A stretch of DNA of 64,000 bases. It comes from a candidate division WOR-3 bacterium. Lineage in GTDB: Bacteria; Hydrothermota; Tepidihabitantia; Tepidihabitantales; Tepidihabitantaceae. Both the position numbers and the translations under genes were made by a program. How positions within the stretch are numbered: the stretch's first letter is position 1; each line of letters starts with the position of its first letter. Of the stretch, positions 56,892-62,062 are shown piece after piece. The notes beneath the pieces were generated by a model, which was not told where the DNA came from, ran no database searches, and saw only the letters and a list, made by a program, of their open reading frames with translations. The stretch covers positions 186,001 through 250,000 of the forward strand of contig JABLXZ010000004.1 in NCBI GenBank assembly GCA_013177935.1. The letters run 5' to 3'.

Positions 56892-59030
56892 GTGTTCTAC
56901 AAAAAAGTAGTAAAAGTGGGCGTCCTGCTCGGGATAGTTGCGGTTACAACGCTCTTCGCCGCAGAAGCTGGCGCCCTGTTCGCCTCCGGTGAAGTTAACC
57001 GGTCAAGAATCTCCCCGCTAATTACCGGCGCCTCAATGCACAAAACCATACCGATTCCACCCACGGACGACTCATCCTGGATAAAAGTCGACTCAATCCC
57101 TCTGGCACCGATTGGTGGTTCTGATGCTCTGTGCGGCTTAAAGGTTTATGGCGACACCATCTTTCTCGTCTGGAACCGGGCAGATTTACCCTATATCGTC
57201 CGAATACTCAACAGGCAGACCGGTGCGGTCATTGATTCCCTGATTGGTCATACAGTTGAATACAAGATGTCGCCGGTCAAGGTTGGTGACACCCTGTATG
57301 TGTCCGGGTTCTACCCTTCGGAGCACATCGATGTCTATTATCTGCCCACAAAAACTTACATCCGCCAGATTGGTCCTATCGGTTCTAATCGTACCCGCGG
57401 TATGGATTGGGATGGTAGCCGGCTCTGGGTCGGCGACAATTCAACTACTCCGCCACGGATTAACCTTATTGACCGGTCTGGGACAGTGCTAAAAACCTTA
57501 ACCAACACCGGTGCACCGCTGGTGGGCTGGATAATGGATTTAACCCTGGACCGGATGATTCCGAATCGGCTCTGGCTCAATGACAATATCAGCGATGTTG
57601 CCTGTTACTGCGCCTTTGATACCGTTGCCAACACATTTCAGGTTCTTGCTACATTCACACCGCCCGCCGGCGTGGGTAGTACTGCAGAAGGCATCGGGTT
57701 CTATGGTCCGGACAACGGTTATGGCTACTGCTACACGAACTCGGCTTATGTCCTCTGGGCTTACAAGATGCTTGTCCATAGCCCGTCCGGAACAAACGAC
57801 ATTGGTGTCAGTTCCATAAAATCTCCCACTTCCATAGTTGACCCGAATACCACCATCACCCCAATCGCCCGCATCACCAACTTTGGCACCGCACCGCAGA
57901 GTAACTTCCCGGTCACCTGCTGGATTGATTCGGCTGGAACCCGCATCTACACCGCAAACTACACCTACACTCAAATTCTTGCTCCTGGTGCCACCGATTC
58001 GGTCTCCTTTTCTCCTAACTGGACCGCAGGTCCGGCAGGAACAAACTACTCCATAAAAATGTTCACCAACCTTTCAAACGACGAAAACCGTATCAATGAC
58101 ACCGCCCGTCTCACCTCAACAACCTTCTTAATCCGGGACACGCTGGTTGCTCCCTTTGCCATTGTTACCCCGACGCTCGACGGCAATATCCAGAATGCCG
58201 AATGGTCTGACGCCCTGAAGTGGGACATCTCCGATGTATTGAATATGCAGGGCAGCGGTGCGCGCCCCGCCGGTAGTTGCTATCTATATGTGAAACACGA
58301 TTCCAGCAAAGTTTACTGGGCGCTTGACCTTAAAGCCAAAACCACGATTGAAGACTACGACCAGTTTGGCTGTTACCTTGACGAAAACCTGTCCCGAACC
58401 TGGGCAGTTGACTCATCTGAAGGCAACCACTGGTTTGTCTGGATAACCGGTGACACCGTCATCTACCGTGCCTTGATTGGACCGGGAAACCTTCCCAGCA
58501 ACTACTGGCAGCGCTGGCAAAGCGGAAACGGCATATCCCGGGCAGGCACCGCTTCTGGCAACCTGCAGTTCGAGGCGGCGGTCCAAAAAGGAACTCTGAA
58601 ATGGAACTACAACATAAATCAGACCTGTGACACCGTCGGGTTCTATGTTTACGCTGCTGCCGCTGGCAGCATCTACTGGGCAACCTGGCCCACCCGCATG
58701 CCCGGCGCCGAATGGAACAATGCCGCAAGATATGGCACCCTGATATTCAGCCCGGACCAAGTTGGTGTTGCCGAAGAGAAGCGTATGCCAATAAGTGATT
58801 TGCGGTTCGCAAATCCGTTGCGGCTCCCGCTTGTTATCCATACCGGACAGCGTCTTGAGGTTTACGACATCTCGGGCAAACTGGTAAAAGATATAACCCA
58901 AGCCAGGGGTGGCAGCATAACCTGGGATGGTAGAGATAAAACCGGCAAGCCGGTTTCCTCTGGGATCTACTTTATTAAACTGTTCCGCAACAATAACACC
59001 ACCCAGACCAAAGCGGTTATACTGCGCTAA
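56892..59030 (+). CDS. Secreted multidomain protein with CARDB-, CBM9-like and C-terminal sorting domains
   Basis: A 712-residue exported protein starting at GTG after AAAGGAGGT. A signal peptide (about 1-25, LLGIVAVTTLFAAEAGA) precedes a propeller-like region (about 55-300; FLVWNRADLPYIVRIL, GMDWDGSRLWVGDN), a CARDB-like domain (about 300-405; IARITNFGTAPQSNFPVTCW), a carbohydrate-binding (CBM9-like) domain (about 415-615; PTLDGNIQNAEWSDALKWDI) and a FlgD-like C-terminal domain (LEVYDISGKLVK, WDGRDKTGKPVSSGIYFIKL, KAVILR). No catalytic residues are evident; a surface adhesin or polymer-binding role is plausible. Confidence 0.85.
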   Translation: MFYKKVVKVGVLLGIVAVTTLFAAEAGALFASGEVNRSRISPLITGASMHKTIPIPPTDDSSWIKVDSIPLAPIGGSDALCGLKVYGDTIFLVWNRADLPYIVRILNRQTGAVIDSLIGHTVEYKMSPVKVGDTLYVSGFYPSEHIDVYYLPTKTYIRQIGPIGSNRTRGMDWDGSRLWVGDNSTTPPRINLIDRSGTVLKTLTNTGAPLVGWIMDLTLDRMIPNRLWLNDNISDVACYCAFDTVANTFQVLATFTPPAGVGSTAEGIGFYGPDNGYGYCYTNSAYVLWAYKMLVHSPSGTNDIGVSSIKSPTSIVDPNTTITPIARITNFGTAPQSNFPVTCWIDSAGTRIYTANYTYTQILAPGATDSVSFSPNWTAGPAGTNYSIKMFTNLSNDENRINDTARLTSTTFLIRDTLVAPFAIVTPTLDGNIQNAEWSDALKWDISDVLNMQGSGARPAGSCYLYVKHDSSKVYWALDLKAKTTIEDYDQFGCYLDENLSRTWAVDSSEGNHWFVWITGDTVIYRALIGPGNLPSNYWQRWQSGNGISRAGTASGNLQFEAAVQKGTLKWNYNINQTCDTVGFYVYAAAAGSIYWATWPTRMPGAEWNNAARYGTLIFSPDQVGVAEEKRMPISDLRFANPLRLPLVIHTGQRLEVYDISGKLVKDITQARGGSITWDGRDKTGKPVSSGIYFIKLFRNNNTTQTKAVILR

Positions 59031-59110: not shown

Positions 59111-60367
59111 ATGAAACAGGTTTATTTTGACCACGCCTCAGCGAGCCCGGTTTTGCCTGAAGCGCTGGAAGCGATGCTCCCCTTCCTGAAAGAGGAGTTT
59201 GGTAATCCCCAGAGTTTTCATCAGTATAGCAAAAAGTCAAAGGAGGCGGTTGAACACGCCCGGCAGCAGGTTGCCCGCCTGATTAACGCACCACCCGAAT
59301 CCATCATCTTTACCGCCAGCGCCTCCGAGAGTAACAATCTTGCAATCAAAGGTTTTGCCCTTGCCAACAAATCCCGGGGCAATCACATTGTGATATCGGC
59401 GATTGAACACTTCTCGGTTCTTGAGCCGGTGAAGACCCTGAAGCGGCTCGGGTTTGACTATACAATTCTACCGGTTGACCGGTTCGGAATGGTTGATATC
59501 GATGCACTGAAGAAGGCGCTCCGCAAGGAAACCATCCTTGTCACAATAATGCACGCCAACAACGAAATCGGCACCATTGAACCGCTCAAAGAGATTGTTG
59601 CGCTATGCCACGAGCAAAACATATTGGTCCATTCGGACGGCACTGCGCTGCTGGGCAGACTGCCGGTTGATGTAACCGACCTCGGGGTTGATGCCTATTC
59701 GTTTTCGGCTCAGTCGTTTTACGGTCCGAAAGGTGCTGCCGCGCTCTATTTGAAACCGGGTAAAAGGCTTGTGCCTTTGATTGAAGGCGGGATTCAGGAA
59801 AAAGGACGCCGGGCAGGAACTGAGAATGTTCCGGCAATTGTTGGTATGGGAAAAGCAGCCGAAATCTGCCAGCACCAGGTCAACCAGTGGTCGCAAAAGA
59901 TGCAGGCGCTTGCCCGTCGCATTGTCACCGAACTGCCCCAAAAGGTTGAGCGGATTGTTTTTACGGGTCATCCGGAAAAAAGGCTACCGGGCCATATCAG
60001 CCTCTGTGTTGAGTTTGTTGAGGGTGAAGCGATGCTTTTATCTCTTGATGACCAGGGCATCGCTGCCGCATCCGGCTCTGCTTGCACCGCCCGCACCCTG
60101 AAGGCATCCCATGTCCTTTTAGCGATTGGCTTGCCCCATGCTATCGCCCAGTCTTCGCTCGTGCTCACACTGGGTAAAGACAACACCGATGATGATGTTG
60201 ATTACTTTTTAGCAAAATTCCCGCCGATTGTTGAGCGGTTGCGTTCCTTTTCACCCCTTTACGCCCGTTATCTTAAAGGCGAAGACCCGTACCAGTTTGG
60301 CACCGTTGATGAAGAACACCAAACTGGACACGAGCCCGAACATAGGGAAAATATAGAAGAAGGATAA
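59111..60367 (+). CDS. Cysteine desulfurase (IscS) homologue lacking the PLP lysine
   Basis: A 418-residue member of the IscS/NifS family. It keeps His100 (IEHF), Asn in NNEIG, Asp176 (HSDG) and the sulfur-accepting Cys325 (GSACTARTL). The PLP Schiff-base segment, normally SGHKIYGPKG, here reads SAQSFYGPKG, so Lys becomes Ser202 (codon TCG, 59714-59716) and the preceding His becomes Gln201; the PLP-contacting Gln is Ala179. Normal cysteine desulfuration is therefore not expected. A lysine-less IscS is known from Archaeoglobus fulgidus. The ATG at 59111 is used because a longer frame runs through the terminator. iscU follows 2 nt after the stop. Confidence 0.9.
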   Translation: MKQVYFDHASASPVLPEALEAMLPFLKEEFGNPQSFHQYSKKSKEAVEHARQQVARLINAPPESIIFTASASESNNLAIKGFALANKSRGNHIVISAIEHFSVLEPVKTLKRLGFDYTILPVDRFGMVDIDALKKALRKETILVTIMHANNEIGTIEPLKEIVALCHEQNILVHSDGTALLGRLPVDVTDLGVDAYSFSAQSFYGPKGAAALYLKPGKRLVPLIEGGIQEKGRRAGTENVPAIVGMGKAAEICQHQVNQWSQKMQALARRIVTELPQKVERIVFTGHPEKRLPGHISLCVEFVEGEAMLLSLDDQGIAAASGSACTARTLKASHVLLAIGLPHAIAQSSLVLTLGKDNTDDDVDYFLAKFPPIVERLRSFSPLYARYLKGEDPYQFGTVDEEHQTGHEPEHRENIEEG

Positions 60368-60369
60368 TT

Positions 60370-60774
60370 ATGTATTCAGAAAAGGTAATGGACCACTTTC
60401 GTAACCCCCGCAATGTCGGGGAGATTGAAAATCCCGATGGCGTTGGAGAAGTTGGCAACCCGGTATGCGGTGATATGATGACCTTTTACATCAAGGTTGA
60501 AAACGGGATTCTTACCGATGTGAAATTCAAAACCTTTGGCTGTGGTGCCGCTATTGCGGTCTCGTCAATGGTCAGCGAAATGGCGAAGGGTAAGACAATT
60601 GAGGAGGCGCTGAAGATTACCAACGAGGCGGTTGCTGCCGAACTGGGCGGTTTGCCACCCAATAAACTCCACTGCTCCAACCTCGGTGCTGATGCGCTCC
60701 ACGCCGCAATCCAGGACTACCTGCGCAAGTCCAGATGTAGTCCCGAATCCGAAAAACCAAAGGGGGAAAAATGA
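60370..60774 (+). CDS. iscU: Iron-sulfur cluster scaffold IscU
   Basis: A 134-residue IscU-type scaffold on which [2Fe-2S] clusters are built. It has the three cluster cysteines in GNPVCGDM, FKTFGCGAAIAVSS and NKLHCSNLG, and the co-chaperone loop LPPNK (usual form LPPVK). It is complete, with a short Lys/Glu tail, and overlaps the next gene's start by 4 nt. It follows the lysine-less IscS; no hscA, hscB or ferredoxin gene is adjacent. Confidence 0.95.
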   Translation: MYSEKVMDHFRNPRNVGEIENPDGVGEVGNPVCGDMMTFYIKVENGILTDVKFKTFGCGAAIAVSSMVSEMAKGKTIEEALKITNEAVAAELGGLPPNKLHCSNLGADALHAAIQDYLRKSRCSPESEKPKGEK

Positions 60775-60965
60775 AAGCCAGGCGCACAACGGGCTGTCGC
60801 TGCCCCTATTGCGACCAGCCGCTTCTTGAAGAAGAAAATTTCTGTAAACCGTGCGGCGCACAGATTGTTTACTGCCCGGACTGCAATCAACCATTGCCGC
60901 AGGGTGCTCGCACCTGCCCGGAATGCGGCAAAGAGATAAAAGAAAATCAAGGGAGGAAAAGATGA
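60771..60965 (+). CDS. Double zinc-ribbon protein
   Basis: A 64-residue protein with four CxxC pairs: CPYC, CKPC, CPDC and CPEC, forming two zinc ribbons (CPYCDQPLLEEENFCKPC and CPDCNQPLPQGARTCPEC). No catalytic domain is present. The family is unassigned; such modules often bind partner proteins. It is coupled to iscU and to the glutaredoxin gene by 4-nt overlaps, suggesting a stable complex or shared thiol/metal role. Confidence 0.75.
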   Translation: MKARRTTGCRCPYCDQPLLEEENFCKPCGAQIVYCPDCNQPLPQGARTCPECGKEIKENQGRKR

Positions 60966-61246
60966 ACCTGACTCGGGTCGCCGGAACCAACAAAAAACAC
61001 CGGGTAACGCTATTTGCCCTTTCCACCTGCGGCTGGTGCCGCCGTGCCAAAGATTTGTTAAACAGCCACAACATTGAATACGAGTACATTGATGTTGACC
61101 TCTGTGTCGGAAAGGAACGGGAGGAGGTGGTAAATCATGTTCAGCAAATCAACCCCCGGGTCTCATTTCCGACGATTCAGATTGACGACGCGGTCGTGGT
61201 CGGTTTTGACGAAGAAAGGATAAAAGAACTTCTTGAAATAAAATGA
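60962..61246 (+). CDS. Glutaredoxin-like (NrdH-type) protein
   Basis: A 94-residue thioredoxin-fold protein with active site CGWC (LFALSTCGWCRRAKDLL), DVDLCVG and the cis-Pro segment SFPTIQIDD, then VVGFDEERIKELL. The spacing fits NrdH/glutaredoxin-like proteins that take electrons from a reductase other than glutathione. Its neighbour, a ferredoxin:thioredoxin reductase-like protein, is the obvious electron source; this link is inferred from the 4-nt overlap. Confidence 0.88.
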   Translation: MNLTRVAGTNKKHRVTLFALSTCGWCRRAKDLLNSHNIEYEYIDVDLCVGKEREEVVNHVQQINPRVSFPTIQIDDAVVVGFDEERIKELLEIK

Positions 61247-61761
61247 GCGGTGAACATTTTCCACCGGAAGTAATACAGGTCTACGAACAACTGAACAAGG
61301 AAGCCGAAGAAGGTGGCTATCACCTCAATCCCGACAAACAGTTCACTTTGAGACTGATTCAAGGGTTATTGACCAACGAAAAGCGGTTTGGCTATCGCGC
61401 CTGCCCGTGCCGCATCGCTTTCGGTGAAAAGTCCAAAGACATTGATATCATCTGCCCCTGCTATTATCGTGACTCCGACCTAGAAGAGTTTGGCGCCTGC
61501 TACTGCGCCCTTTATGTCAGCGAGGAATGGATTAATGGTAAAATACCGCACAAGTCAATTCCGGAACGTCGACCTGCGAAATTTATGATTGAAGGCTACT
61601 CAGAACCAACATCTTCAGAACAATCTGAAAAACCCTTGAACCGCCTTCCCTATCCGGTCTGGCGTTGCAAAGTTTGCGGCTACCTTTGCGCTCGACCAGA
61701 ACCACCTGGCAAATGCCCGGTTTGCAAGGCAACAAAGGACCGGTTTGAACGGTTTATGTAA
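61243..61761 (+). CDS. Ferredoxin:thioredoxin reductase catalytic subunit fused to a rubredoxin domain
   Basis: A 172-residue redox protein. The N-terminal FTR-beta part has CPC (54-56), CPC (71-73) and CYC (86-88); the family form is CPC-x16-CPC-x8-CHC, whereas here spacers are 14 and 12 and His becomes Tyr. By analogy, Cys54, 71, 73 and 86 hold the [4Fe-4S] cluster and Cys56/88 form the redox disulfide. The C-terminal rubredoxin-like domain has CKVC and CPVC (142-161). It would pass one-electron carrier reduction to the adjacent glutaredoxin. No FTR variable subunit is seen. Confidence 0.9.
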   Translation: MSGEHFPPEVIQVYEQLNKEAEEGGYHLNPDKQFTLRLIQGLLTNEKRFGYRACPCRIAFGEKSKDIDIICPCYYRDSDLEEFGACYCALYVSEEWINGKIPHKSIPERRPAKFMIEGYSEPTSSEQSEKPLNRLPYPVWRCKVCGYLCARPEPPGKCPVCKATKDRFERFM

Positions 61762-61771
61762 ATTAAGAGTT

Positions 61772-62062
61772 ATGCCGATTGTTGAAATTAGCGTTGTGCC
61801 GGTCGGAACTGGTTCCACGAGCGTCAGCCAGTATGTCCGGACCGCGCTCGAGGTTATAAAAAAGAGCGGACTCAACTACGAACTCAACCCGATGGGAACC
61901 TGTATTGAAGGCGACTGGGACAAAATCTTTGCTGTGATAAAAGAGATTCACGAAACACTCGCCGCGTTGGGCTGCACCCGTTTAGTTACCACGATTAAAA
62001 TTGACGATCGGCGCGACAAATCGGTTACGATGAAAGAAAAGGTGGCCAGGGTTAAAGATTAA
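61772..62062 (+). CDS. MTH1187/YqgV-family thiamine-binding protein
   Basis: A 96-residue protein of the DUF77/MTH1187 family (ferredoxin-like fold), whose members bind thiamine or related ligands. It has MPIVEISVVPVGTGSTSVSQ, YELNPMGTCIEGDWDKIFAV and TRLVTTIKIDDRRDK. I start at the ATG at 61772; an upstream in-frame ATG (61745) adds nine unconserved residues. It lies 10 nt after the FTR gene and ends the operon, with a hairpin over its stop codon. Confidence 0.9.
   Translation: MPIVEISVVPVGTGSTSVSQYVRTALEVIKKSGLNYELNPMGTCIEGDWDKIFAVIKEIHETLAALGCTRLVTTIKIDDRRDKSVTMKEKVARVKD

Follow-up and report, generated by a model that had tools for sequence, protein, structure and literature searches.

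We report that a conserved clade spread over several phyla couples the scaffold protein IscU to an IscS homologue that has neither the catalytic PLP lysine nor the arginine that positions the substrate. The member studied here, iscS*, adjoins iscU in a 64,000-nucleotide stretch of DNA from a candidate division WOR-3 bacterium (the window, to which positions below refer), and it is a maintained protein whose catalytic residues have been lost as a set. We suggest, with a probability of roughly 0.5, that its product is a non-desulfurase partner of IscU, which accepts sulfur made elsewhere on Cys325 and hands it to IscU.

A cysteine desulfurase is usually taken as obligatory in ISC-type assembly. 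Lysine-less IscS proteins are already known from Archaeoglobus fulgidus and Methanosarcina acetivorans (IscS1); what is new, within the reach of our searches, is an independent and broader clade, the accompanying loss of the arginine, the pairing with what is the only scaffold throughout a family, and a linkage to TusA in both clades. The sulfur source of IscU in anaerobes can hereby be approached by experiments on small soluble proteins, and for the archaeal lysine-less IscS proteins, too, the linkage to TusA points to a candidate donor.

The iscS* gene, its operon and its genome

The genes of the conserved cluster and the residues discussed below are as follows (type B denotes the clade of the window protein).

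59111..60367, + strand: iscS*, lysine-less IscS/NifS homologue, 418 aa (open reading frame, profile matches, solved relatives, fold model)
59645..59647, + strand: Ala179, at the position of E. coli Gln183 (alignment)
59711..59713, + strand: Gln201, at the position of E. coli His205 (alignment)
59714..59716, + strand: Ser202 (TCG), at the position of the PLP lysine, E. coli Lys206 (codon reading, alignment)
60083..60085, + strand: Cys325 (TGC), loop cysteine that accepts persulfide, E. coli Cys328 (found in 98/98 relatives)
60101..60103, + strand: Lys331, a Cys-loop residue acquired by the type B clade (alignment)
60161..60163, + strand: Val351 (GTG), at the site of the substrate-positioning arginine, E. 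coli Arg354 (codon reading, alignment)
60370..60774, + strand: iscU, scaffold, 134 aa (the only NifU_N/IscU gene found in the genome)
60771..60965, + strand: double zinc ribbon protein, 64 aa (profile match)
60962..61246, + strand: glutaredoxin-like protein (Grx) with a CxxC motif, CGWC (profile match; start taken as the first ATG)
61243..61761, + strand: protein like the ferredoxin:thioredoxin reductase (FTR) catalytic chain with a fused rubredoxin domain, FtrB (profile match)
61772..62062, + strand: MTH1187-family thiamine-binding protein, last gene of the conserved cluster (start taken as the first ATG)

The iscS* reading frame has no internal stop and is open upstream to 59045. An initial annotation of the locus had read a serine codon (TCG) in place of the PLP lysine, which codon reading and alignment bear out, and it had further described the replacements at Gln201 and Ala179, the intact His100, Asp176 and Cys325, and a clean frame, all of which agree with our reading of the open reading frame. 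Set against the class I cysteine desulfurases, the protein thus has no PLP lysine (Ser202) and no substrate arginine (Val351) and does have the loop cysteine (Cys325); in E. coli, Arg354 positions the cysteine substrate (PMC9978102). The change from Gln183 to Ala was discarded as a sign of inactivity, being unspecific: the lysine-bearing stand-alone paralogues have Ala, Ser or Cys there.

By fold and homology the product is an aminotransferase class V protein (PF00266, E=1.5e-74), and it scores below the NCBIfam equivalog cut-offs both for NifS (457.1 of 530.75 bits) and for IscS (367.9 of 643.2 bits). The nearest solved structures are 9wep and 4eb5 (A. fulgidus), and the fold model (pLDDT 89.9) matches IscS, NFS1 and A. 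fulgidus IscS, with a TM-score of 0.97 to 4eb5 (normalised by target). According to the alignment, the helix that contacts IscU (E. coli Glu309-Gly310-Glu311) is retained. The E. coli IscS variants K206A, H104Q and Q183E are inactive as desulfurases (PMC9978102), and on this ground the residues of iscS* make it very likely that its product has lost this activity; the label 'cysteine desulfurase' is therefore probably wrong for lysine-less proteins of this kind.

The adjoining IscU carries Cys33, Asp35, Cys58, His101 and Cys102, with Cys33, Asp35, Cys58 and Cys102 as the cluster ligands. The order iscS*-iscU was seen in 12/12 family loci examined, mostly followed by the Grx, FtrB-rubredoxin and MTH1187 thiamine-binding genes, while the double zinc ribbon is a separate gene in some family loci and in at least one (L048) forms a C-terminal extension of IscU. 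In the survey of named loci described below, the DZR profile also hit IscU, and its counts were disregarded. As judged from its translation, the FTR-like protein retains the motifs CPC, CPC and CYC. Glutaredoxin and FTR form a pair for disulfide or persulfide reduction, and Grx and FtrB-rubredoxin in the window operon are probably a redox arm that reduces persulfide. Upstream, the window genome and one further genome (G001) have a gene for a secreted-looking protein of 712 residues with a C-terminal sorting-type domain (56892-59030) between argS and iscS*, whereas argS immediately precedes iscS* in several other members of the family. Runs of rubrerythrin/ferritin-like genes, one member of which was confirmed with Pfam, are located directly upstream of the lysine-less IscS gene at three loci of order-level relatives (L057, L061, L064).

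The window genome is 98.6% complete and has one IscU gene, adjoining iscS*. No SufB/D was found in it, and SufB/D is absent in 39 of the 41 genomes searched; the iscS*-iscU pair is the only recognised scaffold system in the lineage of the window. Searches of the window genome for TusA, DsrE and rhodanese also found none. The initial annotation had proposed a search for a second, normal IscS, and such a gene exists: a stand-alone IscS (G000:C2:360611-361771) in which the lysine (SGHK), the arginine and the cysteine are all present, and the same division between a lysine-less and a stand-alone lysine-bearing IscS was seen in the family genomes examined. The neighbours of the stand-alone gene are archease, signal peptidase II and a gene that we take to be HdrA-like. 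An MnmA-family gene is present elsewhere in the window genome, and its product may be a client of the stand-alone lysine-bearing IscS.

Conservation and two separate losses of the lysine

Among 98 aligned IscS proteins the lysine and the arginine are kept together (60/60) or lost together (38/38), and the equivalents of the loop cysteine, His100 and Asp176 are present in all 98. Serine occupies the lysine position in the same-genus orthologue (84% identical) and in the other sampled members of the lysine-less group of the family. In the 41 related genomes searched, the orthologues of the same genus, family, order and class are without the lysine and have Ser, Thr, Gln or Ala instead, and in other orders and phyla Thr, Gln, Ala or Arg is found. 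A scan of named genomes revealed more lysine-less IscS proteins in Acidobacteria, Nitrospirota/Thermodesulfovibrionales, Saganbacteria, 'Deltaproteobacteria', Dehalococcoidia and a euryarchaeal MAG, while a scan of viral_contigs gave only two IscS matches, both E. coli-like and lysine-bearing. The lysine loss that the initial annotation described as a feature of the window protein is hence confirmed, but it is not confined to this genome and belongs to an old multi-phylum clade.

The dN/dS value of iscS* against the same-genus orthologue is 0.126 (0.148 for the nearby argS), and this purifying selection indicates that iscS* is not a decaying gene. A read error at the TCG codon (59714), which had been named as a possible source of Ser202, is excluded because the orthologues in genus and family also carry Ser and wider relatives carry other residues than Lys. 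Sequencing error or decay as an explanation can practically be dismissed: it is refuted by the orthologues, and conservation over genera, families and phyla, the dN/dS value and the clean frame all stand against it.

To place the window protein relative to A. fulgidus IscS, a tree was built without the trait columns, and in this tree well supported branches separate the A. fulgidus clade (type A) from the window clade (type B). The five members sampled of type A (A. fulgidus, Bathyarchaeota, ANME-2, Nitrospinota and one class-level relative) carry Asp in place of the lysine. A constraint that unites every lysine-less protein in one clade was rejected (AU p=0.018), whereas type B as one clade was not (p=0.557); the lysine-bearing 9wep protein was placed inside type B with weak support. 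The lysine was thus lost separately in the two types, and a single origin shared with A. fulgidus IscS is rejected. Since A. fulgidus IscS is also without the substrate arginine, types A and B have converged on the same losses. Within type B the position of Lys331 is Lys in 32/33 sequences, and in lysine-bearing IscS it is mostly Glu/Asp.

The initial annotation had offered A. fulgidus IscS (PDB 4eb5, 4eb7, 4hvk; D199K mutant 4r5f) as a lysine-less counterpart. The likeness holds for the fold, the missing lysine (Asp) and arginine (Leu), the Ala at the Gln183 equivalent, the retained loop cysteine, and IscU, with which the A. fulgidus protein forms a complex and which neighbours iscS*. It does not extend to common descent of the loss: the A. 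fulgidus protein belongs to the other clade, where Asp was found in the five members sampled versus Ser/Thr/Gln/Ala/Arg in type B, and the loop reads LEP/LQP there and LK in type B.

Sulfur supply to IscU

We surveyed TusA linkage among the best 80 matches of one scan of named genomes, with near-duplicates removed. Counting genes of the TusA family that are encoded on the same strand no more than 3 kb away, we found one at 9/13 loci of type B and 3/3 of type A in this sample but at 0/52 loci with a lysine-bearing IscS, although 35 of these 52 have IscU nearby; a motif search likewise found no TusA near lysine-bearing IscS. For type B alone the association is significant (Fisher p=2e-8), but this value is inflated by relatedness and, because the data hold only two independent losses, the phylogenetically independent test comprises two pairs, which limits the support from TusA. 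The linked TusA proteins that were read retain the catalytic cysteine in CPxP or, in a Nitrospirota group and one archaeon, in CPMH. One type A genome (G028) has TusA, DsrE, IscS* and IscU genes consecutively, and order-level relatives of the window (loci L057, L063, L029) have DsrE and TusA beside lysine-less IscS. In the open-access literature we found no publication that links TusA with lysine-less IscS.

CPMH in place of CPxP characterises the TusA-like neighbours of lysine-less IscS at four loci (L070, L071, L076, L077) from Nitrospirota and BMS3Bbin08. Upstream of one of these (L070) is an Rrf2-family regulator gene, confirmed with Pfam, and similar-looking genes are present upstream at the other three.

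Without the lysine (202) and the substrate arginine (351), the iscS* product would form no PLP internal aldimine and would not position cysteine in the usual way; its IscS fold, the region that binds IscU and the mobile loop with Cys325 are retained. An outside donor could then form a persulfide on Cys325, which would be presented to IscU. In many lysine-less relatives this donor is probably TusA, with or without DsrE, which would reverse the flow from IscS to TusA known from E. coli. On E. coli IscS, TusA docks beside the Cys328 loop and IscU at a separate site (PMC2854127), which would allow a single IscS dimer to receive sulfur from the one and deliver it to the other. TusA as donor is rejected for the window genome, in which no TusA was found; there the source might be the stand-alone lysine-bearing IscS, or else sulfide, with Grx and FTR-rubredoxin as the putative redox arm. 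That the lysine is lost throughout the lineage suggests that sulfur for iron-sulfur clusters probably comes from elsewhere, and a transfer over Cys325 accounts for both the retained Cys loop and the TusA link. Further points stand against it: the window genome has no TusA, DsrE or rhodanese; the residues that contact TusA in E. coli (Trp45, Glu49, Arg220, Arg237) are not specially kept in the TusA-linked members and show no clear pattern; and A. fulgidus IscS is reported to be without desulfurase activity and to give a ligand to the [2Fe-2S] cluster on IscU rather than sulfur (PMC7585200).

The last point leads to an alternative in which free sulfide feeds iron-loaded IscU, and the IscS* dimer shapes IscU and offers Cys325 as a cluster ligand, with no persulfide involved. 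This is a possible if somewhat doubtful explanation of the window locus, which shares with A. fulgidus IscS both the active-site losses and the pairing of iscS with iscU, in a genome where no persulfide-carrier family was found; moreover, H2S can feed IscU in an anaerobic E. coli iscS mutant (PMC13015791). It also agrees with a genome of the same order (G021; L064, L197; 96% complete) that has a lysine-less IscS and IscU and in which no lysine-bearing IscS, TusA, DsrE, rhodanese or SufB/D was recognised, the other strong class V match having no loop cysteine in translation; this genome is a lead only, because draft assemblies can miss genes. A sulfide-fed scaffold leaves unexplained, however, why TusA stands beside lysine-less IscS in two clades and never, in our sample, beside lysine-bearing IscS, and the adjoining Grx/FtrB pair has no evident purpose if Cys325 acts as a ligand only. 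For the family of the window, whose operon is without TusA, sequence does not separate sulfide plus a Cys ligand from sulfur transfer over Cys325. The suggestion in the initial annotation that a lysine-less IscS beside a normal IscU depends on another sulfur donor is supported, the protein being probably no desulfurase; the arginine loss has to be added to it, and its choice between relay and scaffold stays a matter of inference.

That the protein is still a PLP enzyme, with non-covalent PLP or another lysine such as Lys331 sustaining residual desulfurase activity or some other PLP reaction, appears unlikely. In its favour, no member has lost His100 (ring stacking) or Asp176 (pyridine nitrogen), Lys331 hardly varies in type B, and some PLP is still bound by E. 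coli IscS K206A (PMC9978102), but the same variant is inactive, and the positions of the substrate arginine, Gln183, His205 and often Asn155 have changed as well. Moreover, the lysine position varies (S, T, Q, A, R), which suggests relaxed constraint and not a new catalytic residue. Mixed dimers, with the iscS* protein as regulatory or adaptor subunit of lysine-bearing IscS, are even harder to credit: both kinds are present in the family genomes where both were read, but the two proteins are ~44% identical, their genes are far apart, and G021 appears to have only the lysine-less kind. Extending our preferred reading, sulfur acceptance on Cys325, beyond the window, we tentatively propose, at somewhat short of an even chance, that IscS has turned at least two times independently into a sulfur-accepting adaptor, in which a PLP-free IscS receives sulfur on its loop cysteine from TusA (with or without DsrE) and transfers it to IscU, and that whole bacterial families depend for iron-sulfur assembly on such an IscS-IscU pair without desulfurase, no other system being recognised in them.

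Related systems

M. acetivorans IscS1 (MA0808) resembles the window protein in that it is reported (PMC7585200) to have no PLP lysine, its gene standing together with an iscU and four others of unknown function. M. acetivorans differs in having also lysine-bearing IscS2 and IscS3 with IscUs of their own, whereas the window genome has one IscU. The minimal ISC system (MIS, IscS plus IscU) is like the window locus in its core of two genes, which has neither HscA/HscB nor A-type carrier genes next to it, and in being the sole scaffold with no SUF; but MIS is described with a cysteine desulfurase (PMC12192291) and the window IscS is lysine-less by sequence, and the window locus adds the zinc ribbon, Grx, FtrB-rubredoxin and MTH1187 genes. 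The E. coli IscS-TusA system has in common with our proposal the two homologues and a Cys-to-Cys persulfide handover at the loop cysteine; there, however, IscS makes the persulfide and TusA accepts it, while the proposed direction is the reverse, and the window genome is without TusA.

Finally, in one genome of the same family (G008) the lysine-less IscS was not found; at its locus (L032) IscU is preceded by an IscS that has both lysine and arginine, and the genome has a SufB/D-like gene. This genome is possibly a case of natural replacement of the lysine-less partner.
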